DNA of 64,000 bases, from the NCBI RefSeq assembly GCF_041381155.1, contig NC_091134.1, positions 55,067,944-55,131,943 on the forward strand, read 5' to 3'. The stretch is from Argopecten irradians. Taxonomy: Eukaryota; Mollusca; Bivalvia; Pectinida; Pectinidae. This document shows positions 9,641 through 64,000 of this stretch, in pieces; the first letter of the stretch is position 1, and each line of letters opens with the position of its first letter. A program made the position numbers and the translations under genes. The notes beneath the pieces are model-generated. The model saw only the letters and a list, made by a program, of their open reading frames with translations, did not search any database and was not told the DNA's origin.

Positions 9641-10847
9641 AGTATAAGTACCATCCTTGCTAAAGTTAGGGCTTGTATAGAGGAAAGGTGATGCTGGAAA
9701 AGAGCTGTGGACTGAGTACACGGCACAGGCTTTGAAAGAACATGGAGTCACCCTCCATGCATATCTGAGTCCTGTGACATTCCTGGCTGGGCAGGGAGCT
9801 GTACTGAGAATTGCAGTGCTGCGAGTGATCCGGTCTACGGAGGTCTGTACCCACCATGATTGTTTACCACATCCTGTCTGGTTACCATAGGAACAACAGA
9901 TCTGTAAGGGAAATCACAAGTGTTATTGTTGTTGATGTTAAAGACCCATAATCAGATAGGTTAATACAGGTAATTAAAACAGATTTTTCATCTGCATGCA
10001 ATTATTGGGGGTATAAGAATTAATGGAGGTTGATTCATTTCCAACAACATTCAATTTCTCTTAAGTATTGAGCTTTGTAAAGAGCCCTGATACACAATTT
10101 TAAAGGCACAATTCAGTCTAAGAGTACATTAAAATTTGCACATATTTCGGAAACAAACCAGTTCTAATGGAAATAAGATTAGTTGGTTTTACTGTGATAC
10201 GCCAGAAAAGCCCACTGTAGTGAAATGTATGTGAAGTGTTCAAACTCGCTCACTGTCCGCCATTACACATTGTGGTCGGATGTCTTGTATGCTGAACCCT
10301 AGCCCTTGCCAGTGTAGTGAGGAATGTTTTGTCTAGAACTACTCATATCGCTCTTTCAGTAGTGTATTTACCTTGTTAGATGTATGTTCTTGTCTAAAAA
10401 AATAATTTCATCAACTCATTAGTGGTTAGTTATTGCATTTGTTGAACGTGCATTACTTTGGCACAGATATGGGTACAGCGTACATGTTGTACATGCTTAA
10501 TCGTATTGATCAACGATTTAGAATTTCAATGGTATCAATCAAAATACTGAACGACGTCGTGAAATTTGTCAATATTTCTTGTTATATGTTTCATAAGGAA
10601 TGTATGTCATATTTTGTTTTGTGGTTATGTAACAGTATAAACCTCACTGCATTATCCCTTTAAGTTAATAATTGTTTTAGATTTCCAAAGAAAATACTAA
10701 AGTTTGTTTGACCTACTTTGTGGTTTACACACTATTAGGTTAAGGGAAAGTGTACCACAGCCCGTATTATGCAGTTACACTTTAGACCAACAAGAGTTCC
10801 AATCTCACAGTTACTTTTAATGTTGAGAGTGACCTCCCTTGAAATCA

Positions 10848-35344: not shown

Positions 35345-38300
35345 ATGGATGTTGAAAAAGCAAAAAGAATATCAAAGCTAAGAGGCATTGAACGTAAACT
35401 CTCCTCTTACGATATCCATGCATTGGAATTTCTCTTTCATGACGTCGTTTCGACTCGAAAAATGCATGAAGACACGAAAGGTTCAACAATACTATCAGAA
35501 ATAGCTACAGATGGATATGACGAACATGTAGTGGAAGGGTTGGCTCGGGTTGGTAGAAAAGATCTTGCCCAAAAATTGATTGATGGATGTTCAAATGAGG
35601 CTTCTCTTTCACAAATCATACAAAACCTTGGTGATCTCGAGCAGACTCGTTTAGATGAGTTTCGGTGAGTCACCTAATTGTTGTCATTTATCTCTTTCTA
35701 TGCAGTAAATTATGCGCATAGACATTTGTCTTAAACACTTATGAACATACTTTCTTTCGTGTGCGATTTACTTTGAAATTCGCGAATTCCGTAATCAAAA
35801 TAAATTCGCGAAAAGTTGATTTCTGCGCATTAATATCTACATCACTTATATTGATAGGAAAAATTCCGCGAATGTTTATCTTCGCAAACTTGTTTTGAAA
35901 TGAAAATCGCGAAATATAGTAAAGAACATTGTTTTACAGTAATTCTGCACAACTGAACAAATAAAATGCTATTTTAATATAAAGACTTAGAAAACCGGGT
36001 AACGCGTAAGAGTATAAAATCTTTTAATCTTTTTATGACTTCAGAGCCTTACTGGTGCATATAGCTGATGAACTCACTGACGAGGATGACCTTCCACACC
36101 TCAAAAATATTGCAACTAATATTTCCAAGAGAAGACTGTCAAAAGTATCCACGATACTTGACTTCTTTAATTTACTTATGGAGGGAGGGGATTTAAAACC
36201 TGATACACTGGAAGAGGCACTTTTGGAGCCAATGGAAACACTTGGTATAAAATCATGGAAAAAACACTCCAGGAAAATATCAGGTGCATGTTCGTGTCGT
36301 TGAATTATATATACTGATAGATAAACAGAATCTCTTTTCTCCCATACTTCACAGGGGTATCCCGTGGCTGCTAGGGAAAACATATCTCTATAGGGGTCTA
36401 AGACAGCTCACACGCGCTAGACAATAACGTGACGTCATCAATACATGCGGCGTAACTGCAGCGCGCATTGTAGACGCATAACGACGTTCCTGCGGTAATG
36501 GTGCGATGAAAACCTGGAATTCAAGTGGAATTTCATCTTTTTTTTACTAAGTATGGGAGAAAAAGAATCAAACATGGTTCTGTGAAGTGGACAGGGATAT
36601 CTCAACCCTCGTGAAAGGTTTTGGCCGTCAACACTCGGCAAGCCTCGGGTTGACCGGCAAAAATCTTTCACTCGGGTTGAGATATCCCTGTCCACTTCAC
36701 AGACTCATGTAAGATTCTATTAATCTCCTTTGGGATGAGACTGGAGAATCTTAACACTAGGGGTTAGATTCTTAAGTTGTGTAACACAAGGCACTACCGA
36801 GTTTTTGACAGCTAAAGAATCTTATCCGGAGGGTTGAAATCTCCGACTTTACCCGTAAGAGGTTGAATTATTTTTTTCCCTCTTACCTTGTGTCCACTTT
36901 GTATCTCACGTGCAAAGATCTCGTGTATCTTGTCTTTACCCTGGGGCGAGACAGAAAAATCTGACATTGTTAAAATTGCGGATATACCTGTCTGAGGTAA
37001 GAGAATAATATGTCTCTCCCTACGGAGGAGATTTACGACAGTCTAGCATTTGGCATGTCTTGGGTAAGACAGTTGTGAATTTCTTCTTCGGATAGATATT
37101 TTCCTGTCCTACCATCAAGGTAAGGAATGATCCCTTTTCTGCCCCTTTACCCCCCCCCCCCCCCAAAAAAAAAAAAGAAAGAAAAAAAAAGTTTAAAAAA
37201 GTACAACAGGAATCTTAATTGTTTTGAAATATTCGAAGTCAAAGCAATATGAACACCTGCGGTATCAAAACAATTTAAAAGGTATTTTATCGGATAAACA
37301 CCAACCAAATATGTGAAGCCATGTGGACTTCTGATTGCGGTGATCATTAGGTCAAAGTCGAATGCGAATGAAGCATGAGCACGGGGTCAAAGATTGTCCA
37401 ATTGGACTGCACAGGTTAATGTTTATTTGCATATATATTACGTTTTACAACTCCCGGTTGATCTCGCGAATATGTTCTACGCGTGCAGGCTGTCTTTTCC
37501 TGGGTAAGACAGAGATATCGTAGTTGATTGTTTCAAATATTTAAATGCATGTGTGTCGGAACCAATTACGGAATTATGGAATATGGGTACCTTTAATATA
37601 GCGGTATATTTTGGTGTCTGTTTACAGGCTTTAAAGAACGGCTCCATTTGCGTGAAGCTGAAAAGCTGAACGCATCCCTCATTACGACAGCTACAGGTAT
37701 ACTCTTTTACATCCCTATATACACGTTCATAGTCTATATGGCTTGTTACTTCCGATTGATTGTTGTTACCAAAGACAGAGTGTGAATACGTTGTACATGA
37801 ATAAAAATAAACAAAAAGTTTAAATTCACTTTTTTCCACATCGCATAAATACTGTCAATTTGTATTTGGTTGCTAGAAACAGTTTATTTTCATTTCTTTA
37901 CTTTATAATTGTTAAGACAAACATCATATTGAAATATGATAACATTGCTTTTTATTATTTACGATATGGTAATTTCTGAACATAATTTCTATATTTTTAT
38001 CGCTAACTTTAAATTTCATTATCCTATCACAGCAGGCAACATCACAAAACTGGTGGAAGTTCATTGTGAAATTAAATAGAACGAATAAGAAATGTATTTC
38101 CGCCTCAGTATACTACAAAAGAAGCATTGTACATACATTTTGTTAAAGCAATTTTGCCAAAAACAAACATACTTATTATTTTAAGCATTAAAATTATCAT
38201 TCTATTTTAATTTGATAATTATCTGCCAATTTTCATTAAATCTGGATCTGGTTAATTAATCTATTGTGTACTTTATCATAAGTGTAACGCGATATTTCAG

Positions 38301-41300
38301 GTACAATAACACTCAATACATACAGTCAGTTGTAATTCCAGAAGACAAAGGTGGCCAATATGCTTACTTGATGCATGCCCTATAGCATGCATGACTACCA
38401 AGTTTGTACAAAGGAATGACCTTCGCTGTCATTCGATTTTAAAATGACTATGAAGACACATTTTAAACCAAAACGCATTGTTATGTATTGTATCGATGAT
38501 TTAATAAAGATTTCGTTTATAGCAAGTTGAAAAGAGCATCAGTGACGTTAAGGTATTACAGAAGAAATCTGTCTCGGTTAGCTTGTAATAATATATTAGT
38601 AGTAATTTATTTTATCTCAAGTCGATTACACTTTAAAAAAAGACTCGTCTTCCTAGTGGTCGACATAAAAAAAGGATATATAAAGAAAGTGGATACAGAC
38701 TATGTATATTTAATTATGGCAAAAATTAAAATTGATAGATTATATGCTACATGTACATAACATTAATTAAAGTTGATTTAGTTTATTTTTTTTTAAATCA
38801 TAGTCGTAGAAAATAAAGAACAAAATGATGAATGGATTTAAAATGAATGCAAGATGCAAATCTATTTTTTTGCATTCATACTAGAATATTAAAAAATTGA
38901 GTTTTATGAAAATCTTCTGGTAAATTATTCAGTAATGATGGTCCACCATAACTCTTAAATGAGCATTTTAAGTATAATGTAATTTTTGCAGGGAAAACGA
39001 CGTATTTTTCACACAAACTGATAACGTCGCATTCGATATATAATTGAAAGGGCAAATAACTATGTTATATGTAACAGAGATTTTTCAATCGATTTAAAAA
39101 AAACGAAAATGTCAGAGCGCACACTTTTAAGCTAAATATTGCCTTACTTTACCTAGGACATGTTGCAGACGTTGAAGAAAAATTGAGGAAACATGAGGAT
39201 AATACGGAGAGCGTATTAAAGTATCTACATGGTAAGATTGCATAACTATCCATTGTAATGCTGCATGAGTTTATACGATATATTGTGACATTGCCAATTT
39301 GATCATTTGATTTAAAATAGGCATTTACAAGATTTTAAAAATATACCTACATATGTAAAATCCATCCACAATACAATGCCATATAGCGCTTTGACAAAAT
39401 AGAACAAAAATACTGATGTTTTAAAATTGAGAGACCGAACCGATGTACTTTAAATGGTAATGCTTTAGATGACACTCTATATTTTCTTTAAATGTACAAG
39501 TTTTACTAGACATGTAACTGTCCTTTATGTTTTACCGTAATAATTAATGTAATATAAGTCATTACTGAATAAAAGGTAACTACCCCCTCGAATGTCTTAA
39601 AACCAAAGTTATTTTTGTTAGAGACTGTACCGAAAGTGATCGAGACTGGACATTGCAGAGAAGAGACCAAAGGTAATTATTAATGCAAGTATACAATAGA
39701 ACATTCTAGAACCATTGATGATGCCAGAATCTAGACAGATAGTATTTGAAAACAAAATATAAAACTTAAAAGACCGTAAAGAATAGAATTGAAATACATA
39801 TAATATCATAGATCTGATTGTCGCGATAATGATAGTGAAAAATGTGTGAATTAAAAAGAATCGCTTTTCAGTATTGTTAACGTCAGGTAAACAAAACATT
39901 GTAAACTTTATGAAACGAATGCTTAATCAAGAATAAAAAAAATGTTTATCATATGTGTTTCTTGCAAATACTTTATTTATTATTAATATTTCTATTTTCT
40001 TTTTACATGTAAGGTTAATGTATTTCCAATATGTACTGAAATCTTTTATTCAATACTGGATGGATGCAATAAACAAACGTCATTCGTTGTATGACGAGAA
40101 CTCAGTGCTACTAGGATGGTAATTTTGATAATGTTATAATCATCGTGTCTTTGATAATATCAACGTCCTATATCGAAATGTCAATATTGTTGTCTTAACC
40201 ATTGAACCATTATTTTTATAGTTTGATGTGTATTAAGGTCATTATGAACATTCCTTTGTCATTTTGGTTAGAGAGTTTTTATTAACATATATTAAGTAAC
40301 ATATTATTTATCTTTTTCTATTTGTCTTTCAAATAGCAGAAGTTTTGCTTGAAAGCTAATATTCGGTATCATGCAATTTTCATATGAAATATATTTCAAA
40401 TTCTTACGCCAAAATTTACTACCATTCGAGAATTCCATATTTTGTCATTTGTTTCAGAAACCAAACCTCTAAACATTACTGTACTGCTGGATAGAGAAAA
40501 GAGTAGGGAACATCTTAAGTATATGGGTATTTTCAATATAAATTGTTTCGTTTATATGAACTCATATTTTAGCGGTATGTATATTTTAGCCCACTATCCT
40601 CAGATGGTGGGCTATTCAAATCGCTTGGTCCGTCGTCCGTCCTTCCGTTCGTTAACATTTCTTGTTATCGCTATTTCTCAGAAAGGGCTGAAGGGATCTT
40701 TCATATGTAGGTTTCCCTAGGGCCCTAGTTGTGCATAGTGCATTTTGGGACCAATCGATCAGCAGGATAGCCGCCAGGCAGCCTCTTGAATTTTGAAAGT
40801 TAAAGTTCGTTACCACTATTTCTCAGAAAGTACTGAAATGATCTGTCTCAAATTTCACGTGCATGTTTCCTTAGGGATTTAGTTGTACATAGTTGTATTG
40901 CATTTTGGGACCGATTGGTCAACAAAATGGCCGATAGGTCACCGTTATTGATTTTGATAGTTGAAGCTTCTTGCCGCTTTTTCTCAGAAAGTGCAGAAGC
41001 AATCTGTCTCAAATTTTATATGTGGGTTCCCCTAGAACCTTAGTTATGCATAGTACGTTTTGGGACTGATTGGTCAACAAGATGGCCGACAGGTCACCAT
41101 CTTGGGTTTTGATAATTGAAGTTTGTTACTGCTATCTTTCAGAATGTACTGAAGCGATCTCAAATTTTATATGTAGATTCCCCTAGGACCTAAGTTGTGC
41201 ATATTGCATTTTTGGACCGATCGGTTACCAAAATGGCCGACAGGTTGCCATTTTGGATTTTGATAATTGAAGTTTTTTATTGTTATATATCTCAGAGAGT

Positions 41301-44300
41301 ACTGAAAGGATCTTTCTTAAATTGCATATGTCGTAAAAGTTTGAAAAGCAGAGAAAACATCCCTCTTTCCATTGTCAGACGTAGATCATTCTTTGGTGGG
41401 CGCCAAGAACCCTCTGGGATCTCTTGTTGCTATACATGTAATATCACCACTACTTTATTGTCTGTATGTCGTTAACATAGCAATCACTACGGATGCGAAT
41501 AATCATCATTTTGATAACCTGTCCAAAATCATTTTGTTTTTTGATAATATGTACGTTTATGGTTCATATATAAAACCTAAAAACCCCAGCGGTTACTATC
41601 ACTCTCTCACTCTCTTTGTATCCTTTCCTGAGCTTTTCCTCAGCAAACCTGAAGCATTACCTTGCGTACAAGGTACGACAGGGTTTGATCCGCTGACGTT
41701 GCTCCAATATAATATACAAAGTATCATTAGGCCTTTGTCTTTTCTGTTATTTCTTCTTTCACAAATGTTGAATCTGACTATATAGCGTTTTTGTTGTTTA
41801 GGTTACTGATATCAACGAAATTTGGCCAGACACGTTTCTGTTGTAATGTTTTAAAGTTTTATATAAACGACGATTGACCGCTTTCACTCCTTTTAAAATC
41901 ACTATTATTCTTATCATCATGGAAAAGATTCTTAAAAATTCATACAGAATCGTAACTAAGCATTTGTGCCACTATTTTTTCGATTTCATCGGGGTATGAA
42001 TTAAATTAGTTTGTAAACTGTGTTAATCAAAATTTATTTCATATCCCTATGAAATTGAAAAAAAGATATTGACATCAATACTTATAATTAGTTTTTCAGA
42101 CTTCTTGATAAAATGATAAACTTCCATTGATTTTCCAATGGATTATATTTTCCAAATCAATACACAACATCGACGTCTCTATTGTTTTCGCACCATTCTC
42201 GACCTTTTCCTCCTTGAAAATGTAAATATAGAAGTATGAAGAAAACGAATCTGCCAATCAGAAAGTCGGCCTTAGTATAAAAAGAAATGAAAATAATTAT
42301 ATTGCTATAATTTTCTGCAAATCAATTTCTTTTCATAGTACGTAATGTTATTTTCTAGGAAAAGCCGTTATATTTAACACTGAGAAATTCGACCATTCCC
42401 GAAGCCACCTAACTGAACAGACGTCAAGGAACAGAACTGACTCTCCATATGTTGCAGGTATTATATATACCATGTTATAAATATTGGTTGATCGGGTGGT
42501 GTAGTGGTTAAGTCACTCGCTTTTCACCTAACCGGCCGGGGTTCACTCCCGGGCATGGACGTGAAAAGGTCAGGTGATCACGTGGGTTTTCTCCTGGCAT
42601 TCCGGTTTCCTCCCATTCTAAGATCCCTCGTTTTCATCCAGACTATCGAAAGTAACTTGTATAAGTTGTTTAACTTATTACGCAATCGAAATAAATTGAC
42701 ATAAGTTTGAATTTGCATCATGATTGAAAAACATGTAATGCTACGTAGTTTCTGACCTTTATATATATTTTGGTCCCTTATTGGTATTAAGATATAATAT
42801 ACATAAATCGTGTATTCGAAAATCTATGTAAAAATATAACCATGAAAAACTGTTCACTTAAGCAAAATTAAGAAATATTTTTGGATTCTAGCTTAAAGTA
42901 TAAATGGGTACTGATACTTACTATGAAATGATAATGTCTGTTTCGGTATTGTAACATAATTGTCATATAATAACACAATAATACCCGTTTGTTTAGTTTG
43001 ACCTTTTTCTACCTTCAGATGACATTGAAAATAAACTTCGTTTCCTGAATTTCAACGTGGAGCATATTACTGATTGCACATTTGAAAAGATAGATGAAAG
43101 ACTCATTCGCCTTGCGCTTGAAGTTGACCATGGGGATTTTGATTGCGTCCTGATAATCATTATTGCACATGGCAGGGATGGACAACTTAGAGATGCACAT
43201 GGAAACTTTTTTGATTTAGCTCCACTTAGAAAGCGTTTCAGAGCAAATTCTACATCTGCAAGGAAGCCAGAGCTGTTTTTTATCCAAGTTTGTCAGGAGT
43301 TTGACCAACAAAGGAGTATGATTCTACGGATTTGTATATAACTCTTACACATATATATCTGACAAATGATATTAACACAACCCGCATGCAGAAAGCGTTA
43401 AGATACCTATAACTAGATAGAAACAGATTTAAAACATAAATTTACATGTATTCCCTATTCGGTGTGCTCTACTTTGCCGCATAACCATGTCAACAAATAT
43501 GTGCTTAGAATACATGGAATTAAGTATTAAGGTATGCAACCTTTGAACTTTTGCTCGATGATCTTTTTTTTTTTTATCTATTTGCAGATTTCACTGAGAG
43601 ACGATTTTGTGAAGCAGATGAAACGAAAGCGTCCTTTATCAGTCAAATTGCGGGTATATTTTTATATAATAACATTATCAAATTATTGAATGTTTTTACA
43701 TTTTCTTTTAGCACGTTTGCTTTATTTGAAATATAATATGTTGTATGAAAGAAATAATTAGCAGCTCGGTGATGATAATGTCAACTTAAGTAATGTTTTA
43801 CTTTACTCAGGGTATATTCCGAATGTAGTACAAGTATGGGACACTGTAGACGAGGGCAATTTAGAAAGCACATATGGCGCACAAGGTAAATATTCAAATG
43901 CGGGATATAGAGATTACACAACGAGTGGTTGTTGGATCTGGATTTTGAGCTCATCTGACCCAAAGGGCCAAATAGAGATAATTCCTTTAATCGCTATTAT
44001 TTATAAAGTTATGCATATATGGCATCAAAATGTAGCCAGAAACATTCTTGGGGGAAGGGGAATAGAGTATGTATACATTTTGGCTCTGATCCCCTGGAAC
44101 AGAAAGAGTGGGGCCCAATAGGGAAATTAGAGGTAAATCTTTAAATTCGTTCAGAAAAGAAACAATTATATTATATTCAAAACATTATATAATTATTTGG
44201 CATTACAAACCAGTTTAGCGATACAGGCCCTCTGTGCCTTTTGCTTTTCATCCACAAGCAGGATAAACAACATTTGCCGATATATGAAAATAAAGTTTAG

Positions 44301-47300
44301 CGATATCTTCATAAGCAGAAATGGAAACTCATTGATATAAAATTAAATATATTATATCAATTTGATTATAAAGACTGATCTAGATAACTACTCGTTGTCG
44401 AACTATATGTAGGCATGCTTAAGTGTCATTTTCTTCCCTCATCAAACCATTGAAAATAAAGTATTGTGGGCCAAAGTTAAAAATCTCGACCAATCAAAAG
44501 ACCCCAGAAGGTTATAGATAGACATACAGTTACCTAAAAAGAGTTTACAAACTCGAAATTAAATGAAATATAAGCTTTGCAGGTTTATGTAATGTTCATT
44601 ATCAATAAATTATTAAACTATTGTGTGCAATATCTAAATGATATCACCTTACTTACCACTTTTTGAAGGCATTATTTAAACGTCTTTTTTTCATTTGTGA
44701 AGATGCACAAGCTTCACAGAAAGCTGAACATAACCCAATCACTGAGGACACACACATACCGCAAATAACCCAAGGTATATCAACAATGTTAATTGAGTTA
44801 ATTTATTTTGTGTTATGTCCTATTTATCAGTCAATATAAGGATGTGTAGAGTTGATGACGTGAATGAATGCCAAAGTACCGTATAGCTACCCCAACTTGG
44901 TTTCGAACTCACAACCAAGAGGTAGAGAGTCAATGGTAATGGGTCAGAACACCTAAAAACCTCGGCTATGGCGGCCCTTTATTATGTTAAGTCAAAAAGA
45001 TAAACATTTGATTTTAAATGCTGCCCACATTGTGTTTGGTAATCGTATATCTAAACTCGCATTGAATAAAAATGAAGTAAAAGAAAGAATGAGAAATATG
45101 ATTATTTTCAAGGTTTTGAAAATAAACTTCTAACATATATGCATCTTTGAGAAACCAGAGCTTTTCTTGTGTTTTATGTACTCATAATATGTCTTATTTA
45201 CAGGTTTGAATGAGAGGCTCCTTTCAAGTCAAGCAGAGGGAACAGTAGAGTCCTTGATCACGCAAATCGCAGGTATACGTGGCTATTTTATACTAGATAA
45301 AATAGTCAGTTGTTATAGGTTTTGTGATAGCGTTCTCAGTTTCTTTTCATGTTTTTTTTATAATAAAAAATAATAAGAATATAAAATGTTGGCACTGTGT
45401 GGCGAAAATGTTGTTTTTAACCTAAAATGCCTCTCTTTGTTCAGATAATGATTCAATCGTTGACACAATATGGCAGACAGACAATGACAACACAGCAAAC
45501 TCAGATAAAGCTAATGGTAAATATGTAAATACATTATATTGACTTAAGTATCTTCTTAAAGTGCTATTCTTATGGTCAAATCTGACATTTTAATGTTGCA
45601 TGATAGGCTACTAAAATTAGATTACATAACTCTATATGAAATAGTTTTCATTTTTTGTAATGTATACGCTATTAAGAGTATGTGTGTTAAAGTGATTTCG
45701 CGTTTTTATCTGTAATGAATAAACTTTAGATATACCCTCGAAAATTCCATTTGCACGTTTATACTTCTATTTATAATACACGTTAAAACTGAACAGATCT
45801 CTCTTTAGGGAACTTTATGTCGTTAAATTAAATCAAAACATCCTCATATTACATTTTTGAACTCAAAGTTATAAATCAAGGGACGGCTGTGCTGAAAGGC
45901 CGATTTTATTTTTGTATATAAATTAACTTATCATAAAAGCCTCATGTTAGAATGGTTAATTGTAAATCAAACGTTAAACGTGTCTCTTTTATATATTTCA
46001 TTACTTATGGTAAACATTTACAGACATGAAATGGTTAAACGATATTGTATTATACATGTATTCACGCTTAAAGAAAGCAAGGACACCCGTACTTGCGTGT
46101 AAGTATATTTTTTAAGGATTAATCGTTACGCTGAATTACAACGGTGGGTAGAATGACGCTGTTTCCAATGTAACATGCCATACCGTTATATTAAGACTGA
46201 CATTAACGTTAATCGTTTATTACTATGACATAGACACTGTTGCGAAAGTGGTCGAGATTGGACAGGACAGAGAAGAAACCCGAGGTAGGTTTGCCATATT
46301 TTCTAAATACAAAATAAATCTGTTGATCGCAAGAAGCAAGAGACAAACAGATGTGTCAATTTGTAGAAGTGTTTGTAATATGCACTCCATGAGAAATACT
46401 TAAAAAATCATCTTTTTCATGAAATCTTCGTGACTCAAATCATCATTTTATGGCATGTTCTTGATTCGTATTTTGTCTTCATTGCCTTACCTCTAAATGC
46501 GTTCGACAAAATAGAAAAAAGGGGGGAAAAGTAGGAACTTTTACAAAATATAATAGATTAAAGTAGTTGTTAAGTATGCGTCTAAAATATACCTGAACAA
46601 TACATATTCTTTACTTAAGTTATTATACGGTAATTCCGCGCAGCACATTAATTAATTGTCTTTGATGTCACAATAGGAAATAACATGATATTCTGTGATA
46701 ACATGTACAAACAATTATTTTTAGACTCCAGTACGATACCTAAATACCATAGAACAAAACAACAACCTGCGAAAAAGGTGGGGGATGAAGTCTACCGGAT
46801 GAGACAAGGTATTCTTACCGTGATTAACCAGTGCTTTGTATATCTCGTGATTCTATATGACAAAAATCTTGAAAGGGCTAATCTAAAAACCAACGAATTG
46901 CTTTCTATAGACCGTAGTGCCAGTATAAGAGTTCTAGTGCATATGGTCAATCTGTTCATTTCTATGGCATGAAATTAAGACGTAAAGCACAACTAGACAT
47001 ACCAAATTTACACCAACACTACCTGTGAATAAAGGATGCTGGAGCTTCATTACAACTGTATATATAATACTGGTCGATCTGTCCAAAAAGCATCCTACTC
47101 TCCATCTTCTATACACAGAAATGCGATTTTTTCGTTGGTTGTTTGTTCCTTATAATTTTTATTTCAATTTTGTAATATCATCTGCTAGTTATATCGATTT
47201 TAATGTAGAATCGAGGTTTTATTTTCATTAAAAATAATAATGAAAATATTAATGAATGCTTTTCCAGGCAAAGCCCTTATATTCAACATTGAAAAATTCA

Positions 47301-50300
47301 ACCGTTCCCGAAGTCATTCCGAAAACCTCACATTGGAAGACCGAAGAGGTTCTTCTGTTGATGCAGGTTTGATTTAATTTACTCTGCATTGATAGAGAGA
47401 ATCGTTCATGTCATTCTTTATCCAGCGAAAATGAGCGTATGTTAATCCTTAATATCTATTTGCATTATTGTCTTTGTCACAGGAAAACAGCATATATTAT
47501 GTGATTTTTGTTCCCATATTTGTGTTACTGTGATAAATCAAGTTGTTTGCAGTAAGATTTTGTACTTTCTATTCTTCACAGATCGAATTGAATATACCTT
47601 TCGAGGGCTGAATTTCGACGTTGAGCGTTTCAATGACAATGAATGTACAATCGAAGTGATAGAGGGTAGGCATCGGCGCCTCGCATCTGATATTGACCTT
47701 AGAAATTTCGATTGTATTGCGATATTCATTCTCACACATGGCAGAGATGGGAAACTGTTGGATGTAAATGGAAAACATTTTGATTTGGGACAACTTCGCA
47801 GTTATTTTATCGCTAGCGAATGTGTTTCACTTGCTGGGAAACCAAAGATGTTCTTCATCCAGGCGTGTCAAGGATCTGTACCACAAGGAAGTAAGACCCG
47901 TGCATTTATATTTCAATAATATTTATTGCAGCCCATGTGGTCTTCTGTAATGCAGGGGACTCGAACCACCTAGATCTGCAACATGATGCAGAATATCATT
48001 TTAGCTCATTATAAAATGGTAATAAAATAGTGAAAGATTGTTAAAAAAATTCTTTTTTACAAAAACAACATTTAATTCCCCAGACATGTTATACAACTGA
48101 AGACTGCCGAGATTGCGTCCTTGGGATCAGCCTTCAAAAATGTAAACAAATGACCTCACACAGGGGGAGGGAGGGACTGTCACTCACGGCATAATTAATC
48201 AAACGTGGTTTTCAAGACAACCGAAGAAAAAAATAGCCTGTCCAGTTGTATGACATTCTCACCCCCAAGTCGTGCCATGGCAATAAGATACAATATACTC
48301 CAATTGTCATCATAATCGAATTGTTGAACTTCAGCCAAGTAGAAGCTTATTTTTGTTTACCATGATAATGTAGATTTTGAAAGGTGCTACCATTGTAGTT
48401 GGCATCCTTAAAAACCGTATGACCAGTATTCACTGCAATCAGAAAAAAAATTAATACCAATTTCGACAAATCAAAAACCTCTATTTTGTTACCATGGCAA
48501 CGTAAGATTTCTGAAATGGCACCATTGCATCCTTCAAAACTAATAGTATGTCAATCTGCACTTAATCCCAGGACAAGACTAAATATGTAAGGTCGCATGG
48601 TGTACGATGATATAAGACATGTTAATGCTGCAGAAGTCCGACAAACTAGAGACAATTGAGAACATTTAATACATAATTTGGGTATAAATCACTAATCATA
48701 GTGAACAATTTACATTTACCAAGCGCTAACTTATTATCTCCACATAGTTAATCACAAACGTAGCAAGAGGCGTCAGAAACACTAGTATATACAATGTACA
48801 AATAAGTTATGTCAAATGTTTACCAGCTGTGTAACCAACAAATGATGTAAAGACTTATCTAATACAACATCGATTCTTAAATCTTTTGCAGTTAACATTT
48901 ATATTGCAGGCATATTTATGAATAAATGCTATTTAATTGCATTTATTAGTATATATATATTTGAGTGAAGATGTTGATACAACGTGATTGTATATATACA
49001 AACGTGAAAGTAAATATACAAACCAAAAACCAAAGCTGTCTTAAATTAATGCAATAGGTCTATTGTAAGCTTCTTTTTTTAATTAAACCCGATGAGATTA
49101 AAAGTAGTGACATCAATGCTTTTAATTAATTTTCCAGACTACTTGATAAAATAAAATACATTTACACATACGATTCCATGGTTTTTCCAAGGGATTGTTT
49201 TTCCGAATCAATATGCAACGTCAATGTTTCTATTGTGAAGTCACGATAACGTCAGGTTTTTGCATTCTCGTTTTTGTTTTTCAAAGTCGGATTTAGTATA
49301 ATGCATACATGAATAGTTATATTTTTGAGGAGGACGCGGTAAAGTCGTGGTATGCCATTTTTATACTGCTATCTCATTGAAACATGTCTCCAATGACACC
49401 AAACACTCCAACTCCCCGGCCATATGATACAAAAAAACGGGGAAATCAGTTGTCACACTCCGTTCATGTTAAAATGTTAAATGTCAAAAAAAGAAAAACA
49501 AAAGAAAAAAAAATAATGTACATAACGCGTTTAGAAGTGGGGCATATTGACGCATTTATAGCCAGGCATGTCTTAAGGCATAGCAAGCGTCTCGGATAAA
49601 GAGACTTCGACTCCCTTCAACAAAATCACAGCAATGCTGGAGATAGTTCCCGTCTCTTCAGTGATTTTAAAGTTGTTTCGTGTACCCAGTGCACTCCATT
49701 GTTGGGGAAAGTTCATGAATATTAAAGACAAAACAAGTGCGGAAAGTTCACTTTTCATTTATTTGTATTTGTCAAAAATATGCCAAATATCCGTCCTGTT
49801 TGAGGCAAGAAATGGCTGATGAATTTCCCTCCCTGAATAAAATATAATGAAATGCACTGGCCATTGTTTTGTAGCTGTTCCAGCAATGGAACATGCATAT
49901 GCGTAATTAATCTAAAATATGGCTGTGAAACACACACTACCTAGATCGGATAAATGCGGGTCGGGTGTTTGGTAGGCAATGACATGTACATGTAGTTGAC
50001 AAATGTCTTTTTCAATATAGAAGACAGTATTATACCTAGCACATCAGAATTGTGTAGTAAATAGTCTTAAATTTTGATAACTAAAATTAAAACTTTTCAT
50101 TCAAACGACATTTCCTAAAATAATCGAAAGGCTCAGGGTACTTATATTTAGTCGCAGAATGCTGGGATGAAGGGCTGCGAAGTTTATTCAAATGAATAAC
50201 CTTGACTGCCATTCCAGGTCACAGGGGTCAAATTGGTTAAAATACTTTTACAACTTCTTCTGAATAACTAAGAGATCTAGAGACCTGATATTGGGCCTGT

Positions 50301-52924
50301 GACATGCTCGGATGAATAACTACCAAGTTTATTCAAATAAATGACCTTGGCCTTGGTTCATGGTCGTAGGGGTCAAAAAGGCTAAAATCTTAAAACGACT
50401 TCTGAATAACTAAGAGGCCTAGCAACCTGATATTGGGTCTGTGACATCTGGGATGGAAGGCTACCACGCTTGTTCAAATGAATTACCTTGACCATCATTC
50501 AAGGTCACAGGTGTCGAATAGGCTAAAATCTTAAATGACTTCCTGTGGATAACCTGAGGCCTGGAGACCTGATATTGGGCCTGTGTAATGCTTGGATGAA
50601 GGGCCGCTAAAATCTTAAATGACTTCCTGTGGATAACCTGAGGCCTGGAGACCTGATATTGGGCCTGTGTAATGCTTGGATGAAGGGCCGCTAAATTTGT
50701 TCAAATGAATTACCTTGACCATCAGTCAAGGTCACTGGTATGGACTAAAATCTTTAAATGACTTCTTCTTAATAACTATATGTAAGATGCCTAGAGGCCT
50801 GGTATTGGGCCTGTGACATGTTTCGATGAAGGGATACCAAGTTTGTTCAAATGAATGACCTTGACTGTCATTCAATGTAACAGGGGTCAAAAAGGCTGAA
50901 ATATTTAACTGACCTCTTGTGAATAACTAAGAGCCTAGAGACCTGCTATTGGGCCTGTGACATGCTGGGATGAGGGGCTACCACGTTTGTTCAAACGAAT
51001 GACCTTGACTTTCATTCAAGGCCAAATTCATCAAATTAAAGAGTTCTCTGTATTGCCTTAATTGTTTCCCAATACTTTATTGTTTGAGATGTTGTATTGT
51101 GCGAATAGTCAGATGACAGTTAAAGCCCATGGGCCTCTTGTTTTTTTGTTTGTTTGTTTGTTTTTCTATTTTTTCTATTTTGCTGATTTACATCGCTTAC
51201 ATGTAATGAAACAAGTGTAAATAATGTATATCAATGATATGCTATTTGCAGTTAGGTTAGTTAAAATCTACATTTCCAATGAACTATTTTTTTGTGTTCT
51301 TACATCCTTATTTTCTAAAAAATCAAGGAACAAATATGTATGTGTCTCTGGTTCATTAGACATTAAACAAATATGTAAACTTCACAAGTTTTGTAAACGG
51401 AGAATGATTTGAACATTTTGATATTGGATTACCTCACAAGGCATGCCTGACTCTGAGTACTATCAGTATTTTATTTTTTCTGTCGATAAATTCAACTGGT
51501 TCCGCTGAGAAAATATATGATATTTAGATATGAGCTAGCATTGAAGTTTGATTTTTACCAAAGTTACCAGTATACGGCAAACCTAATCATTCTGTTCGTA
51601 TAAATGATCCTGAGTATGGAATGAATTGACAATCGTAGGAATTTGACTGAGTACTAGGTATGTTAGGTTTAACAAGAGAAAATAGTTAAGCCTTTCTCAA
51701 AAATGTGCTGTAACGCAAATTCCCGAATTTATTCTAAAATTACTCGAGCTTTCCTCAAGATGGTCAGTGGACTGTGAAAACCTTGTTAAATGTGACCAAA
51801 CTAAATATCTCCAAAATTTTTTATGTCTTTTATTTGAAAAAAAACATAAAAAAGAACAAAAAGTAATAACAGTATTAAATACAAGATATCACTTTATCAG
51901 AAGAACAAGGTATCAATAACGTCTCTTGCTAAAAGTGGCTTGTTGTCTGTTCTAAGGGCATATAGAAACAGACACCGTCGTGTTCAAACCGAGGTCACGA
52001 CCGACGCCATCATCACCATCGATTCCGGATCCTCCGGAAGCACCACCTGCAACACCGCCATGCAGTAGTACTGCTGACCAGTCGCCAGACGAAGCGGATT
52101 TCCTAATTTGCTACTCAACTCCTCCGGGATATGTTTCCTACAGAGACGTAGAGAAGGGGTCATGGTTTATCAGTACATTTATTACAACGCTCGAGGAAAA
52201 TTGTAACAGGTATACAAAAGTACAGTATCTCAAGACCAATAGTCCTTCATTCTAATAGTTGCGCCATGTTACCGCCTAAACTTTAGGGATATATAAATAC
52301 GTGTCTTCTTTGTCCATTCACTTAAAAATGCGGTACTACGTATGCCTAAGTATTTACTGGACTACTCTGAGGTCTTGGATACTTCTGCCTATAAAGGAAA
52401 AGTAATTTAGAACGCCATATAAGGGATGGCTCTTGTGATTCTGATAACGATGGAAACTTTTTCAAATATAACAACAAAATCAACTCCTCTGATCTTATCT
52501 TGGATTCAGTTACTGTGTACTTGATATAAACTTGATAATGCTATTAGTGCAATCAACATAAACGTGCCATCGAGACGCAGACACACAGTGTCAAAATGTG
52601 CTTATAAATCCTCTCTTCGTCACCTTTTATTAATCATGAAACAGAAAAAAAATCATCAGCATTTAATCACATTTTAAAAATTATTTAATTGTAGAGTTAT
52701 ATTATTCATCTGTATCATACACGTGTAGTACGGTTTTATCAACCTCATCAAACATTATATGATTGGGTCTTTTCAGCCTTGGTATCGTCGAGATCCTTCA
52801 TCAAACCAACCGTATGCTGGTAAAGAAAACTGGAAACATAAAAGATATACCATGTGTACAGTCTCTAGAAATTCACTCAAGTCTACGTGGGGATCTATTT
52901 CTCAGAATCATTCCAAAAACATGA
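35345..52924 (+). CDS. caspase-8-like protease with two DEDs and two p20 domains
   Basis: Twenty exons keep one frame (860 residues): 35345-35664, 36045-36283, 37628-37696, 39157-39231, 39622-39672, 40458-40526, 42359-42457, 43019-43315, 43588-43653, 43811-43885, 44703-44774, 45204-45272, 45445-45516, 46024-46098 (least certain), 46234-46284, 46725-46808, 47268-47366, 47582-47890, 51966-52209, 52777-52924. DED1 is about 5-85 (GRKDL motif) and DED2 about 105-185. The first p20, about 275-406, has AHGRDG (His358) and QVCQE (Cys399). A linker follows. The second p20, about 594-730, has THGRDG (His680) and canonical QACQG (Cys723). p10, from about 772, has DEADFL and VSYRDVEKGSWF (Arg790, S1 pocket). 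It resembles initiator caspase-8 or -10 in death-receptor signalling. One gene is the simplest reading; two fused or overlapping genes remain possible. Confidence 0.85.
36324..36566. mobile_element. inverted-end element (CTTTTCTCCCATACTT)
   Basis: CTTTTCTCCCATACTTCACA on the left faces AAGTATGGGAGAAAAAGAATC on the right, about 240 bp apart. It lies in the intron after the second DED exon of caspase gene 1. No coding capacity. Confidence 0.6.
36580..36702. repeat. 123-bp near-perfect palindrome
   Basis: CTGTGAAGTGGACAGGGATA on the left and TATCCCTGTCCACTTCACAG on the right are exact complements. The pairing continues to CTCAACCC-CGTGAAAG, with a GC-rich loop holding GGTTGACCGGC. The flanks beyond also pair weakly, so it may be the centre of a larger fold-back element nested beside the one at 36324. 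Confidence 0.85.
36703..37510. other. repeat-like intronic sequence with poly-C/poly-A
   Basis: Several short inverted motifs recur (AGATTCTTA, GTAAGAGG...CCTCTTAC, GGGTAAGACAG twice) around a C-run then A-run at 37149-37190. It looks like decayed mobile DNA that I cannot classify. Confidence 0.4.
40586..41430 (+). mobile_element. hairpin-ended element with CAAGATGGCCGACAGG units
   Basis: The head TTTTAGCCCACTATCCTCAG is followed by ATGGTGGGCTA, which form a hairpin. The tail GGTGGGCGCCAAGAACCC...GGGATCTCTTGTTG matches the end of the element at 1418-2166. Between them are five ~140-bp units with TTTCTCAGAAAGT, CCCTAGGGCC and a GATGGCCGACAGG-type block. It lies in caspase gene 1, in the intron before the first p20 exon. 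Confidence 0.85.
42065..42280 (+). repeat. intronic duplication, copy A
   Basis: TTGACATCAATACTTATAAT, CAGACTTCTTGATAAAAT, TTTTCCAATGGATT, TCAATACACAACATCGACG and AAAGTCGGCCTTAGTATAA occur here. They occur in the same order and at similar spacing at 49110-49305. This copy lies just upstream of the first p20 exon; the partner lies downstream of the second p20 exon. Confidence 0.8.
42490..42712 (+). mobile_element. tRNA-derived SINE
   Basis: GGGTGGTGTAGTGGTTAAG is a clear A-box head and GGGGTTCACTCCCGG a B box. Then come CACGTGGGTTTTCTCCTGGC and TTCCGGTTTCCTCCCA, the core shared with 23067. It ends in a short AT-rich tail in an intron of caspase gene 1. It is not a tRNA gene. Confidence 0.85.
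43948..44250 (+). mobile_element. hairpin-ended element, CTAGTCATAGAGTTC type (degraded head)
   Basis: The head GAGCTCATCTGACCCAAAGG leads into AATGTAGCCAGAAACATTC, then GATCCCCTGGAACAGA, and the tail CAGTTTAGCGATACAGGCCC...TTTTGC. The layout is that of 25320-25737. It lies in an intron of caspase gene 1. Confidence 0.75.
44862..44985 (-). mobile_element. tRNA-derived SINE fragment
   Basis: The reverse complement reads GCCATAGCCGAGG-TTTAGGTG (A-box side) and GGTTGTGAGTTCGAAACC (B box), like a tRNA-Ser/Leu type head. It is intronic and degenerate. Confidence 0.6.
47891..49109. other. long intron between second p20 and p10 exons (left part)
   Basis: No exon found. A diverged direct repeat, GTTTACCATGATAATGTAGA and GTTACCATGGCAACGTAAGA about 140 bp apart (48350 and 48490), suggests an unclassified mobile element at about 48040-48560. 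Confidence 0.4.
49110..49305 (+). repeat. intronic duplication, copy B
   Basis: GTGACATCAATGCTTTTAAT, CAGACTACTTGATAAAAT, TTTTCCAAGGGATT, TCAATATGCAACGTCAATG and AAAGTCGGATTTAGTATAA align with copy A at 42065-42280, by eye at roughly 75-80% identity. No p20 exon follows it here. Confidence 0.8.
50090..51143 (+). mobile_element. hairpin-tailed element with ~6 GACCTTGA/CCTGATATTGGGCC units
   Basis: Repeated units contain AATGACCTTGAC, TCAAGGTCACAGGGGTCAAA, CTAAAATCTTAAA, GACTTC-TGAATAACTAAGAG and CCTGATATTGGGCCTGTG. The tail is AGTCAGATGACAGTTAAAGC then CCATGGGCCTCTTGTTT. One ~85-bp segment (GCTAAAATCTTAAATGACTT onward) is duplicated exactly at about 50520 and 50607. The head is not obvious. 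It lies in the intron between the second p20 and the p10 exons. Confidence 0.8.
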
Positions 52925-58393: not shown

Positions 58394-61300
58394 ATGGATA
58401 TCAATAAGGCAAAACGGAGATCAACTGCAAATGCCATTGGCTGTGAACTGAAACCATACAATATTGACACAATCATATTCCTCTACCATGGATGCGTTTC
58501 AGCCGAAAAACTGCAAAGAGACGGCTCAAAGTTGTTTCTTGAGTTGTCTTTAGACCAGAATTACGAACGAGTGATTGAGTGTTTAGCGAGGGCTGGTAGA
58601 AAAGATCTCGCTTCCAAATATAGCGAAGCCTGCTCAAATGACGGAGAAAATCTGTATTCAGGAGTAATGAAGGATATTGATGACCTTGGAAAGACGCGTC
58701 TTGATGAATTTAGGTAAATTGTACATTACAATAACAAGTCAATAGAGTTTAGATGATGGTTAGATTAATAAAATAGTCTTGTGATGTTAACTTATTGACA
58801 TTGTCAAACTATCCTCATCTTCAAACATCCGGTGTTTTTTACAGCTGAGAAAAAATAGCAATAAAATATTTTTTGTATTTATTGTTCTAAATTCTATATC
58901 CATGTTTTTAATGAAGATAACATAATTTACTTTTAGAAGCTGTCAACAAGTGTTTAGGTATGTTTGTCTGAAACATATATTGACTTCATACGAAAAAAAA
59001 TAATGGCTTGGATTATTTCTTCGAAGTTACACATATCGCTAAACTTCGATACTACATGTGTACTAAGAAACCTTCATGTAAACATGATTGCAGAGTCTTG
59101 TTAGTGTGTATAGCTAATGAACTGACAGACGAGGAGGACCTGATCATATTAAAGGACATAACACACGATGATGTTCCTAAGAGATCTCTAGAAAAAGCAA
59201 AGACGGTACTAGATTTCTTTAGTTTACTTATGGATGAGAAAATCCTACATCCTCATACACTAGACACAGCACTTTTGGATCCAATGGAACATCGTGGTAT
59301 AACGGCATGGAAAAAACACAATGGGAAAATATCAGGTAAGCATCTTATGCTTCGGATTCATACCACTGGGTACTTCGTTCAGTACGAGATTTTTTGAAAA
59401 TAAAATCCTATGATTTAATTATCTTGGAGGAAAATATGCGGCAGTTAAAATGTTGTATTTTTAAATCCTATACATGTCACACAACATAAACATTTATGTA
59501 AGTTATGATAACTGGTATAAAGGTATAATAGTGTTTTCTATACTATAGAGGATTCTGTGGTTAAAATAAGGGAAACAACAATGTTGGATTAAATGCGAAG
59601 TATGCGGTGTTATTGTTTTGTTTACCTTTGTAAAGGATTTAAAGAGAGGCTCGCCGTGAGTACAGCGGGAGAAAAGAAAGAGTCAAAAGTTAATGAAACT
59701 ACAGGTAACATCGTTTGGTTTATCATATATTCTTTGTTAAACAAATGATATATTGCAAAATTGCGGTAACGTCTTATCGATTTCAGCTTATTTAGAAGTT
59801 TCCTAATACGAGTTGTTGAATTATAAAACAATTTCACGGGATATTTGAATTCGTATTAGACCTCACGCATGAAATTTTCTGAAAATATGTACATGTATTA
59901 TGTGAAATCAAAGTGATGTTTAAGATGTCTACGTGAATGAGTGGGGTGTGTGCGTGAGTGGTTGGATGAGAGAAAGGGAGGAAAGAAAGGAAGGAGGGGA
60001 AGAGTGGAGAATAAATGAAAGAATGGGCAAATTAGGAAAAGGAATGTGAGCTAGGGTACTAGTGAGCGAATAATCGTGCAACCAATAAAGAATGCCATTT
60101 TGATAAGCCTAAGTATTTCTTAATGAATGATAATTCTTACCGTGTTGTTCGTAACTATTTGTTGCAGTTATTTCTGTTAATTCATGCCCTCGTTAACAGC
60201 CAAAGTGATGTAAGTATGCGCTGCGTAAACTGTTCCAGACGTTTTCAGAGAAATGACATCGACTGTGCTAAGTAACTAAAACAGTTAAACGTAGGCCCTC
60301 CAATTTCTATCTGAAGATAGGTGATCAGACACTATAGTTTGCAAATAGGGAAACCTGACATTACGTACATTATTCTCTACAGAAACTGGTCCTGAAGTAG
60401 CGGCAGAACAGACGAGCGTAAGCAACACAGACTCTTTAGGGGAAGTACAAGGTACATATAACCGAAAATAATTTAAATTACTTATTAGGAAGGATTAGTT
60501 AATTAATAATTATGATTTGTACTTGAGAAGAAATTACTTCTTTAATTAATCGATTTAAGTAATAACTTTGATATAAACTTGGTAGAACTTAACATGAGCA
60601 GTCACTTGAATTTACTTTAAGAACGTTTATTATTGTATAGAGTAGACACTATGGCTATGAGATGTTCACACAATAGATATTGGCCGAAATATTCTTCACT
60701 GATAGCAATCAATAACAATGATATCTTTTATAAAGTTAGCTACTAGTAATAACAATATGACTGACTAAATCGTTACCATCCCTAATTCCTTTTGTAATTG
60801 ATTTCCATGACCCTTATACTAATCTCAAAAACACCATTATAAAATATAACCAAATTTTTAAGCAAAATAGTTTGGTTTGCTTATTATGTTGATTTACCAA
60901 TTAAAAGTTTAATAGCCTAGTTTGAACTTATTGCATTGTAAGAAATGTAAAAATGGAATACGTTGGTCTTAAACATTTTGATAAAACTTACTTTTCAGAG
61001 ACCACACAGAAACTGCCCGAGGGAGATCAGTCTTCGGAGGAGGCTCAAGGTACGAACTACTTTATAAAATACTCTTCATGCCCCTCCACACATATCAAGA
61101 ACAACTCAACAAGTAAATAAAATTGAAATGGCCACCCTAAAAAGGGTGACATTTAAATTTATTGTTAATGATCCACCATGTGGATTAAAACAAGAAATAA
61201 CGGTTACCAATGCAAAATAAAAATCACTACAACTAAAGAATAAAATTTTATCAAAATTATGCTAGCCTAAGTGTGGTTGACCCAAAAACCGATATATAGC

Positions 61301-61879
61301 GAATATATACATTGTAGGTATATTTTTTCACTAAAATAAACATTTCTTATTTTCCTCACTTTTCAGAAACCCAAACGAAGGGAAAGGAAGTGGAACCAAA
61401 ACAGGCCAACGAACATCCGCAAAACCCAAACGAGGCACAAGGTTTGATTTTACCTTATTTTTGGCGTTTTTTTAGAGGAACTAATATCTCCTTTTCTGTT
61501 TACGGTATATATACATTTTATATCGAAGTGTGTGTGTCATTTATTCGAGATGGAGTGTCTTAACGTTAACGCGCTGTTTACTAAGAATCAGAGAGCTGGT
61601 AACACACATGCAGTTTTGTGTTTAATTGATTATTTAATTTTCTTTTAAGAAATTGTACCCAACTTGACGGGAAACGATCAGCCCCTGGAACAGGAAACTG
61701 AAGGTAATTTTTCGGATTTTTTAGTTACGTAGATTATGGCATCTCATCCTCGATGCACCAGGGATTACTATTACTGACGTTATATCTACCTCTGGATTAT
61801 CTTATAGTAAAATGGAAGCAGCAGGTAAGTTAATCATTTGATGTACATCAAAAGAATCGTATAACGGTACACTTTGGGC

Positions 61880-61954
<75 letters not shown>

Positions 61955-63560
61955 ATCTTCAAAGTAAATCTCTGCAGGCCGGTTATTGGCCAGTTTTTTT
62001 TTCTCCTGTCAGTAATAATAGTCCCTACAGTATCGAAGACGATGGCTTCCTGTCGTCAGCAGACGTTTTCAACTATGACTTTAGTTTCATCTTTTATACA
62101 TATTTTTTATCTATTCTACTAATTATAGCTGTTTTATTTTCCATATTTTGTTACCTTTTCGTCCACTTACTTATCTTTTATTTGTTGTAAAATAAGTTTT
62201 ATAATTATTAAAAGTAAGTTGCCTTTCCTTCCGTTGTATTTTTATGATATCGCTTGTTGTTGATATTGTATCAAAAATGGTAGTACATTTTTGCAGAACC
62301 AGCAGAACAATTAAATTTTAAATAGATGTTTCTGCTACAATATCTGAAATTCAGGTGCACAAGGTGGAGCAGAGGAAGACCCTTCGCAGACCAGTCGGAA
62401 GTGTGTGGAAAGACAGGATACCACACAAGGTGTATTGTTATAAGGATGTAGTTTTACTGGCATGTGAGGAAAAACGGCCTCATGTTGGCCGAGAAAAACA
62501 TCAATTGAAATAATACTCAAAGACGTACAACGCCAGCCTGCATGCTTATCATTGCTTAAAATATTTTGCTAAAGATTTCAATTTACTTTGGATTTTTTTT
62601 ATCATAGTTTGGTATATGGGAGGGTTGATGTTGCTGTTATTTTCGTCAAACTCATTTACAAATACAATGTATATTTCAAACGAAACATTATTTCATGTAA
62701 GCAAATTACATAACAAAGAAAATTATTATAACGGTTATTTTCGAAATCAGAAATATGTATTTATTTTGTAAACAAAAACAAATTCCACTATTTTCTGCTT
62801 ACATCGGTCGTCATATGACTTCATTGATATGACATTGATCTCACACTAAATAATCTTATCGTTCTCTTTTGGAATAGGAGCAGAGAATGAAGATTCCAAC
62901 AGTACTGGAGAGGACAAAGAGAGACAACAGCAAAAGCCAAGTAATTGATAACCGAAATATTATCAAGCAAATTTTATGCTTATAGCTGAACTTTTTTCTT
63001 AGATGTAGCTTTCACTAAGCATTTAATAATTGATCGATTAAGCTATAATTGTGAACTTTGTTTATCGTAGTTATTGTCTTATCAGAGACTAGACGGAATG
63101 CAACTGCCGCTGATCAGCCTCAAATTGACGAAGGAAGGAACCAAACCTCGATTCCAGATACAGGTTGTTATACAAGCACATTTTACCAAAATATGGGATC
63201 TTGTTATTTTATTGACACTTGTGTGCTTAGAACTAAAGCGAGTTTTCAAATCAAATTATATCTTTTTATACTAAGAGATAGTTTTCGTCTTCAGAATAAT
63301 TAATATTTTAGCAGTTACTACTTGATAATGATTGGAGCTATTTTAAAGATGACGCATAAGACAATTGAATTCCAACGAACTCCCTTTTGTCTCCTTCATA
63401 CATTTATTTTATATCAATGTTTATCATTATAGTTGTATATTTATAATACTGAATCGTTATTTTTCAGATTCAGGCGGTGCCAAACCTAAACGTCGCAGTA
63501 CACACAATCGAGTAGATAATGATGATTCAGGAGAATACAGAATGACCAGTATACCTAGGG
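58394..63560 (+). CDS. caspase-8-like gene 2, N-terminal part (window ends inside gene)
   Basis: Coding exons in one frame are 58394-58713, 59094-59335, 59636-59704, 60383-60451, 60999-61049, 61367-61441, 61650-61703, 62355-62429, 62878-62940, 63086-63163 and 63468-63560 (1189 nt, about 396 residues, continuing past the window). Exon 1 is 320 nt, exactly as in gene 1, and encodes DED1 with the same GRKDL motif. Exon 2 encodes DED2 (VCIANELTDEEDL). Exon 3 (GFKERLAVSTAGEKKE) matches linker exon 3 of gene 1. The next seven exons encode a hydrophilic linker rich in Glu and Gln. The last exon ends GEYRMTSIPRG, which in caspase-8 immediately precedes the p20 domain, so the protease should follow beyond 64000. 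It is a tandem paralogue of gene 1. The sense strand, phase and splice sites agree throughout. Confidence 0.85.
61738..62045. mobile_element. MITE, 'CCAGGGGTT' family, expanded by (TC)n
   Basis: CATCTCATCCTCGATGCACC, CTCTGGATTATCTTATAGTA, TTGATGTACATCAAAAG and the closing ACAGTATCGAAGAC match the family seen at 17205 and 32350. A long TC run sits in the middle. It lies in an intron of caspase gene 2. Confidence 0.75.
61881..61951. repeat. (TC)n microsatellite
   Basis: A pure TC dinucleotide tract of about 70 bp inside the MITE copy at 61738-62045. The Leu/Ser frame it opens is not a gene. Confidence 0.95.
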
Positions 63561-63603
63561 GTAGTATTCGTGTTGTTCTTGACTGGATGTTATTTTCCGG
63601 GAC

Positions 63604-63702
63604 GCGGCACCATAAAACTTTTTTCAGACAGATTGTTTTTACTCAAGTTTACACTTGAGTAAAAAATCTGCCTGAAAATAGTTTTATGTTGCCGGACCCG
63701 GG
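63604..63702. mobile_element. palindromic element, GGCACCATAAAAC family
   Basis: GGCACCATAAAACTTTTTTC on the left faces GAAAATAGTTTTATGTTGCC on the right. The centre TTTACTCAAGTTTACACTTG is itself palindromic. This is the same element as 18833-18925. It begins 43 bp after the last coding exon seen here. Confidence 0.85.
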
Positions 63703-64000
63703 AATCAGGATTGAAATAAAATCTGTTTGAAAAATGTGAGAAACGGCGTCACTGATTCACACTAAGAATGATGACGTCATATTTCACACCTTTTACGGTA
63801 TATTTAAAAATAATCATAACAAGAGGTGTATTCTACTTACAGACAACGGAAACATGACTACCGTTATACCAGTCATACATGCATGATTGAATAACGTTAT
63901 TGCCTTATTGTACATAAATGGTTCTTTTTACATAATTATATACTGCAACACAATAACAATATCACGTCAATCCTTACAACATTAATTCGTTTCTTATCAT
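63703..64000. other. intron of caspase gene 2 (to window end)
   Basis: No further exon is recognised before the window ends. The p20-encoding exons of gene 2 are expected downstream. Confidence 0.5.

Follow-up and report, generated by a model that had tools for sequence, protein, structure and literature searches.

A predicted DED-caspase gene of Argopecten irradians with an internally duplicated p20 domain

Within the window (i.e., the whole 64,000-nucleotide stretch of Argopecten irradians DNA analyzed here), gene A is predicted to encode a caspase-8-like DED-caspase in which part of the linker and an upstream p20 domain, p20(1), evidently arose by internal duplication without the p10. The window covers bases 55067944-55131943 of contig 1 in a genome of 846 Mb and 1508 contigs. 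A 204-residue muscle myosin fragment, joined from two translated stretches of contig 5 with trimmed edges, is identical at every residue to PDB chain 1dfk_A, from bay scallop (A. irradians), with lower scores for chains 2ec6 and 2os8, from sea scallop; this makes A. irradians or a near relative the very probable host. The gene model is well formed and illustrates internal duplication in a caspase well. Amino acid constraint on p20(1) is relaxed and indistinguishable from neutral. According to the account that we prefer, to which we give about an even chance, the internal p20 duplication resulted in a p20(1) that at least some transcripts would include as a translated half-caspase ahead of the protease and that would be, under its relaxed constraint, at most a weak negative element.

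Exon model of gene A

Gene A (positions 35345-52924, + strand) comprises 19 coding exons that join into one open reading frame of 2508 nt (835 amino acids plus the stop codon) without an internal stop, and all 18 introns start with GT and end with AG (Table 1). The ATG lies one base after a further AG. The domain order in the model is DED-DED-linker-p20(1)-linker-p20(2)-p10, with one exon for each DED, four for the first linker, two for p20(1), seven for the second linker, and two each for p20(2) and p10; the translation contains two Peptidase_C14 stretches according to Pfam. An earlier note on this DNA had described DED-DED-p20-linker-p20-p10 exons on one strand, in phase and free of internal stops. 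The 19-exon model bears this out, with the start at 35345 and the stop at 52924 exactly, but its coding length is 75 nt below the 2583 nt given there.

Every one of exons 3 to 17 is phase 1-1, so the frame survives whichever of them are included, and a coding length that is a multiple of three is weak evidence. In-frame joins account for 139 of the 171 donor-acceptor exon pairs, and open proteins also result from skipping p20(1), from skipping p20(2), or from joining p20(1) to p10. A single mRNA with all gene A exons is predicted from the genomic DNA and may be one product among these.

Table 1. Predicted coding features of gene A and its tandem neighbor (positions in the window)
Feature	Positions	Strand	Remarks
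Exon 1, ATG, DED1 (divergent)	35345..35664	+	Weak DED match, 22.6 bits
Exon 2, DED2	36045..36283	+	44.5 bits in whole protein, 32.3 alone; FADD DED match
Linker unit I, four phase 1-1 exons	37628-37696, 39157-39231, 39622-39672, 40458-40526	+	
p20(1) exon a	42359..42457	+	Exon model; DNA similarity to p20(2) exon a
p20(1) exon b	43019..43315	+	His of AHG and Cys of QVCQE kept
Linker unit II, three phase 1-1 exons	43588-43653, 43811-43885, 44703-44774	+	Without p20
Linker unit III, four phase 1-1 exons	45204-45272, 45445-45516, 46234-46284, 46725-46808	+	
p20(2) exon a, intact RRGSSVDA loop	47268..47366	+	
p20(2) exon b, THG and QACQG intact	47582..47890	+	
p10 exon a, VSYR inside	51966..52209	+	
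p10 exon b and stop codon	52777..52924	+	
Gene B, tandem caspase-8-like paralogue	58394..64000, on to ~68.0 kb (extended coordinates)	+	

DEDs, downstream protease, and gene B

Against the Pfam cut-off of 35.9 bits, DED1 falls short, and DED2 passes within the whole protein but not when scanned alone (scores in Table 1); DED2 matches the FADD DED with an E value of 2.5e-4. Exon 1, which carries DED1, is 45% identical to the first exon of gene B, and the DED-DED order and exon layout of gene A are as in gene B. The DED1 exon also gave a weak Pfam Dredd_N match (E = 0.023, below the cut-off). Three equal-score DED matches were seen on the small contigs 226 and 257, which are possibly duplicated or redundant pieces.

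The downstream protease, p20(2)-p10, is predicted to be intact: THG, QACQG, and VSYR are all present, and its best PDB match is caspase-8 (E = 1.8e-28), with caspase-3 near (1.3e-27). The full partner that the earlier note assigned to the second p20 is found in the two p10 exons.

Gene B starts 5.5 kb past the stop codon of gene A and includes DED-DED, nine short phase 1-1 linker exons, one p20, and a p10, the last p10 exon being seen in tblastn and in the sequence but not joined in the model. A polyproline stretch lies ahead of its p10. The p20 identities are 65% for p20(2) and gene B, 50% for p20(1) and p20(2), and 45% for p20(1) and gene B.

The upstream p20 and the region behind it

The resemblance of the putative p20(1) to caspase p20 domains is not a matter of chance. 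Alone, it scores 48 bits against Pfam Peptidase_C14 (E = 1.7e-12; cut-off, 21.4). In the PDB, 139 distinct sequences match it at E values of 0.01 or less, the best being an ancestral effector caspase (3.2e-13) and the best caspase-8 match reaching 6.4e-11. Its exon split point and phase are common to five p20s (i.e., p20(1), p20(2), that of gene B, and those of two paralogues on contig 16). Single-sequence structure prediction for the core exons of p20(1) and p20(2) returned mean pLDDT values of 58 and 47, respectively; because the value is low even for p20(2), the presumably folded control, the prediction says nothing about the folding of p20(1). An allele mix-up in the assembly was ruled out, as the DNA of p20(1) and p20(2) is only 64% identical.

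No credible p10 lies between the two p20s (43316-47581) in a p10 tblastn search to E = 10, in agreement with the claim that the first p20 has no p10 of its own; the sole match, at 47265 (E = 4.5), overlaps exon a of p20(2) in a different frame. Judged by position, there is no second p20-p20-p10 order among the genome-wide matches listed, which include at least 44 to Peptidase_C14. On the minus strand of contig 3, p20 matches at 30573751 and 30593132 are 19 kb apart, with no p10 among the matches listed.

Transcripts might instead end after p20(1), giving a DED-DED-linker-p20(1) product as a c-FLIP-like stand-alone protein. Read-through of the p20(1) donor would add eight residues before a stop ending at 43341, and polyadenylation-like motifs occur from 44289 onward. 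The p20(1) splice donor, however, matches that of p20(2), where read-through also soon stops, so that the stop behind p20(1) is no special feature, and the 15 AATAAA/ATTAAA motifs in 43316-47300 (about 9 expected from base composition) are near the AT-rich expectation and too common to decide the matter. We consider an early-terminating isoform very unlikely.

Origin of the duplication

Similarity between linker units I and III, each taken with the p20 that follows, is confined to the exons. Five of the six homologous exon pairs exceed shuffled controls (z = 4.2 to 19.1), the sixth (69/84 nt) showing no similarity (z = 0.5), whereas three of the four intron pairs are at background (z = -0.9, 0.1, and 0.4) and one gives a z of 2.4. 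This exon-by-exon pattern points to an ancient joint duplication of linker and p20. At exon a of p20(1) and p20(2), the segments 42351-42407 and 47260-47316 are 84% identical over 57 nt. The 51-nt linker exons (39622-39672 and 46234-46284) are 78% identical in DNA, which exceeds the identity of the p20 exons, and gene B has a 51-nt exon as well (60999-61049). The dN/dS values of the unit I/III linker pairs are 0.53/2.38 for the 69-nt pair and 0.25/0.26 for the 51-nt pair, in which dN is about equal to dS. The first two linker exons of unit II resemble linker exons of unit III, suggesting that unit II is a further linker copy, as far as these two exons show.

In a tree of just five p20s, all from the A. 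irradians genome, the branching of p20(1), p20(2), and gene B is weakly supported (ultrafast bootstrap, 41; log-likelihoods of the three orders, -2084.11, -2084.25, and -2084.83), and the duplication may thus precede or follow the split of genes A and B.

The same exon series bears on whether DED-DED-p20(1) is a gene in its own right, followed by a second gene for a short-prodomain caspase, p20(2)-p10. An in-frame ATG just ahead of p20(2), in exon 46725-46808, would suit such a division, but units II and III extend the same phase 1-1 series and partly resemble unit I, and gene B has the single-gene order DED-DED-linker-p20-p10. We regard two genes as highly improbable.

Eroded loops and relaxed constraint in p20(1)

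The frame and exon borders of p20(1) are intact, with no stop and no frameshift, and the catalytic His and Cys, the S1 Arg, and the Gln of the active-site motif are retained, the motif being QVCQE in p20(1) and QACQG in p20(2). We scored p20(1) at columns invariant in the four other p20s (38 columns, of which one is gapped in p20(1), leaving 37), with p20(2) as a stand-in for the ancestor. It keeps 28 of the 37, compared with 19.8 ± 3.0 expected under neutral drift with an open frame at a branch length of 0.95 (P = 0.0055), 23.2 at 0.7 (P = 0.07), and 26.3 at 0.5 (P = 0.33). Always-hydrophobic columns are still hydrophobic in 34 of 37 cases (P = 0.03, 0.11, and 0.30 at 0.95, 0.7, and 0.5, respectively). 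Among the nine changed columns, F40L and L84I (alignment columns) are conservative, and the other seven fall in two catalytic loops (G28D and D32V; L118S, G120R, K123E, A129V, and G132E), so that the nonconservative losses affect the S1 arginine loop and the segment leading to the active-site motif. G132E is not counted as proof of inactivity, since Dredd, a relative of caspase-8 in the fly, has the motif QACQE; a literature search for a published QACQE motif in Dredd did not find one.

The omega of p20(1) is 0.56, 0.81, and 0.59 in three five-sequence trees and 0.46 with three sequences, against a background of 0.14 to 0.19. The difference from the background is significant on five sequences (p = 0.003 to 0.005) but not on three (p = 0.066), and an omega of 1 on the p20(1) branch was never rejected (p = 0.27, 0.80, 0.32, and 0.11). 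The probability that p20(1) would carry no stop is 0.002 to 0.033 if the whole branch was unconstrained (indels were not simulated). These features suggest an open frame with eroding loops, as expected of an insert translated before a needed protease, and the pattern may fit an insert with or without a regulatory role.

Two further readings have to be weighed against this pattern. One is mutually exclusive use of the p20s, p20(1) or p20(2) being spliced to the shared p10 to give two initiator isoforms of different specificity. The p20(1) and p20(2) donors lie at matching places, both donors and the p10 acceptor are phase 1, the p20(1)-p10 join yields an open 536-amino-acid protein, and the retained His, Cys, S1 Arg, and Gln would be in keeping with an alternative catalytic p20. 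An active protease domain, however, should be constrained like p20(2) and that of gene B, and the omega of p20(1), which exceeds the background about 2.5- to 6-fold and is indistinguishable from 1, counts against such use, as do the losses in p20(1) of G and D, both invariant, from the S1 loop and of the G from QACxG; we rate it as unlikely. The other is that p20(1) is a relic, an exon pair recently abandoned and skipped. That an omega of 1 is not rejected and that the frame survives skipping of the pair would both be expected of a relic, and the probability of finding no stop reaches 0.12 to 0.32 with constraint absent from just a quarter of the branch. This probability falls to 0.02 to 0.14 with half of the branch unconstrained, and the lack of stops and frameshifts and the intact splice sites over a long branch also argue against a relic, which appears decidedly unlikely.

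Possible roles of p20(1) and the comparison with c-FLIP

In our preferred account, at least some transcripts would be translated with p20(1) as a half-caspase ahead of the protease, and its frame would be preserved because the downstream protease would be lost to any stop or frameshift in p20(1). The unrejected omega of 1, the nonsignificant column retention at the shorter branch lengths, the exon pair lacking similarity, and the 51-nt pair with dN near dS count against this account. The DEDs would drive assembly, and p20(2)/p10 would carry out proteolysis. As at most a weak negative element, p20(1) might occupy the single p10 in cis or space the protease from the DEDs; its inclusion could be tuned by exon skipping, given the shared 1-1 phase of every linker and p20 exon. 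Alternatively, p20(1) may be merely carried along, its frame protecting what follows.

In caspases, the beta6 strand and helix alpha5 belong to the small subunit (p10). c-FLIP(L) has DED-DED before a caspase-like domain and is encoded by a separate gene, with a p10-like part. Gene A likewise combines DED-DED with an extra caspase-like domain, but p20(1) is a p20 only, lies in cis, and keeps His and Cys; the caspase-like domain of c-FLIP is described as catalytically inactive in the available excerpts of PMC12198278 and PMC4715348. In the c-FLIP/procaspase-8 pair and in the model of coral caspase-X, domains meet via beta6 strands with helix alpha5 (PMC4715348, excerpt). Since p20(1) is without the p10 dimer interface, a c-FLIP-like partner is unlikely. 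According to a 2021 survey, bivalves had yielded no identified FLIP homologue (PMC7836458).

The earlier note had proposed a built-in caspase-like decoy or regulatory domain acting as a covalent pseudo-partner in the manner of c-FLIP. An extra p20 with eroded loops does precede a complete protease, but the missing small-subunit dimer interface and the retained His and Cys make the c-FLIP-like partnership doubtful. The anatomy of p20(1) may still permit one form of decoy, competition for the one p10. In the resting DED-caspase, p20(1) would sit in cis on p10, taking the position of p20(2), and hold the protease off; DED assembly or cleavage of the duplicated linker would free p10 for p20(2), and exon skipping would set the dose. 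We consider this unlikely; if true, it would amount to zymogen control by subunit competition rather than c-FLIP-like dimerization. Gene A, with an extra p20 in cis, and gene B, without one, form a natural pair for testing half-caspase regulation.

Comparison with known caspases

The double-caspase layout is already known from corals, mammals, and mussels, and gene A is a variant of it; the earlier note did not know the layout from standard caspase-8, but precedents exist in coral caspase-X, mammalian caspase-16, and two Mytilus coruscus CASc domains. A DED-caspase in which the p20 alone is duplicated and His and Cys are kept was not met in the excerpted literature consulted. Searches on bivalve DED caspases, molluscan caspase-8, Argopecten caspase-8, and proteins with two p20s or two CASc domains found no description of gene A in the portions of the papers available.

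Coral caspase-X, first recognized in cDNA, is a single protein with a degraded caspase domain followed by an active one, and its first domain lowers activity in HeLa cells (PMC4715348, excerpt). The gene A model would put a degraded caspase region, here a p20 only, before an intact one. Caspase-X is a precedent for a degraded caspase domain that acts as a negative regulator from an upstream position. The first domain of caspase-X lacks His and Cys and is modeled with its own beta6/alpha5 interface, and the available table rows give the protein two Peptidase_C14 domains and no DED (PMC4715348); p20(1), in contrast, keeps His and Cys and lacks the beta6/alpha5 part. The prodomain of mammalian caspase-16 derives from duplicated caspase exons for both the large and the small subunit, with loss of the catalytic dyad, and no DED is mentioned in the excerpt (PMC12198278). 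The extra region of gene A also derives from duplicated caspase exons, but of the p20 only, with His and Cys kept and DEDs predicted.

Bivalve caspase sets are large and irregular. Caspase-8/10-like initiators of bivalves include DEDs, a p20, and a p10 (PMC7836458; C. farreri, PMC8878197), as is predicted for gene A, which differs from these excerpted accounts in its second, upstream p20 and its exon-repeat linker; no double p20 was found in the available parts of either. In the oyster, each DED is on one exon and caspase-8-like genes lie near each other (PMC7836458, excerpt); the predicted DEDs of gene A also have one exon each, and gene B lies close by. Bivalve p20-only caspases are known (PMC7836458 and PMC10967218, excerpts). 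In M. coruscus, two CASc domains occur in 4 of the 47 caspases, and two p20s with one p10 make up 2 of the 51 CASc domains (PMC10967218, excerpt); gene A shares the subunit composition of those two domains, for which the excerpt gives neither host genes nor DEDs.

Other features of the window

The 4-kb intron between p20(2) and p10 contains tandem repeats of about 145 nt (50159-51021) and an exact 84-nt duplication (50522-50695). In the intron inside p20(1), positions 42490-42640 have a tRNA-derived (SINE-like) look by eye; ARAGORN reported 0 tRNAs in the window. Positions 6001-10000 have a G+C content of about 0.45 and a GC skew of >0.22, above the other 2-kb steps of the window.
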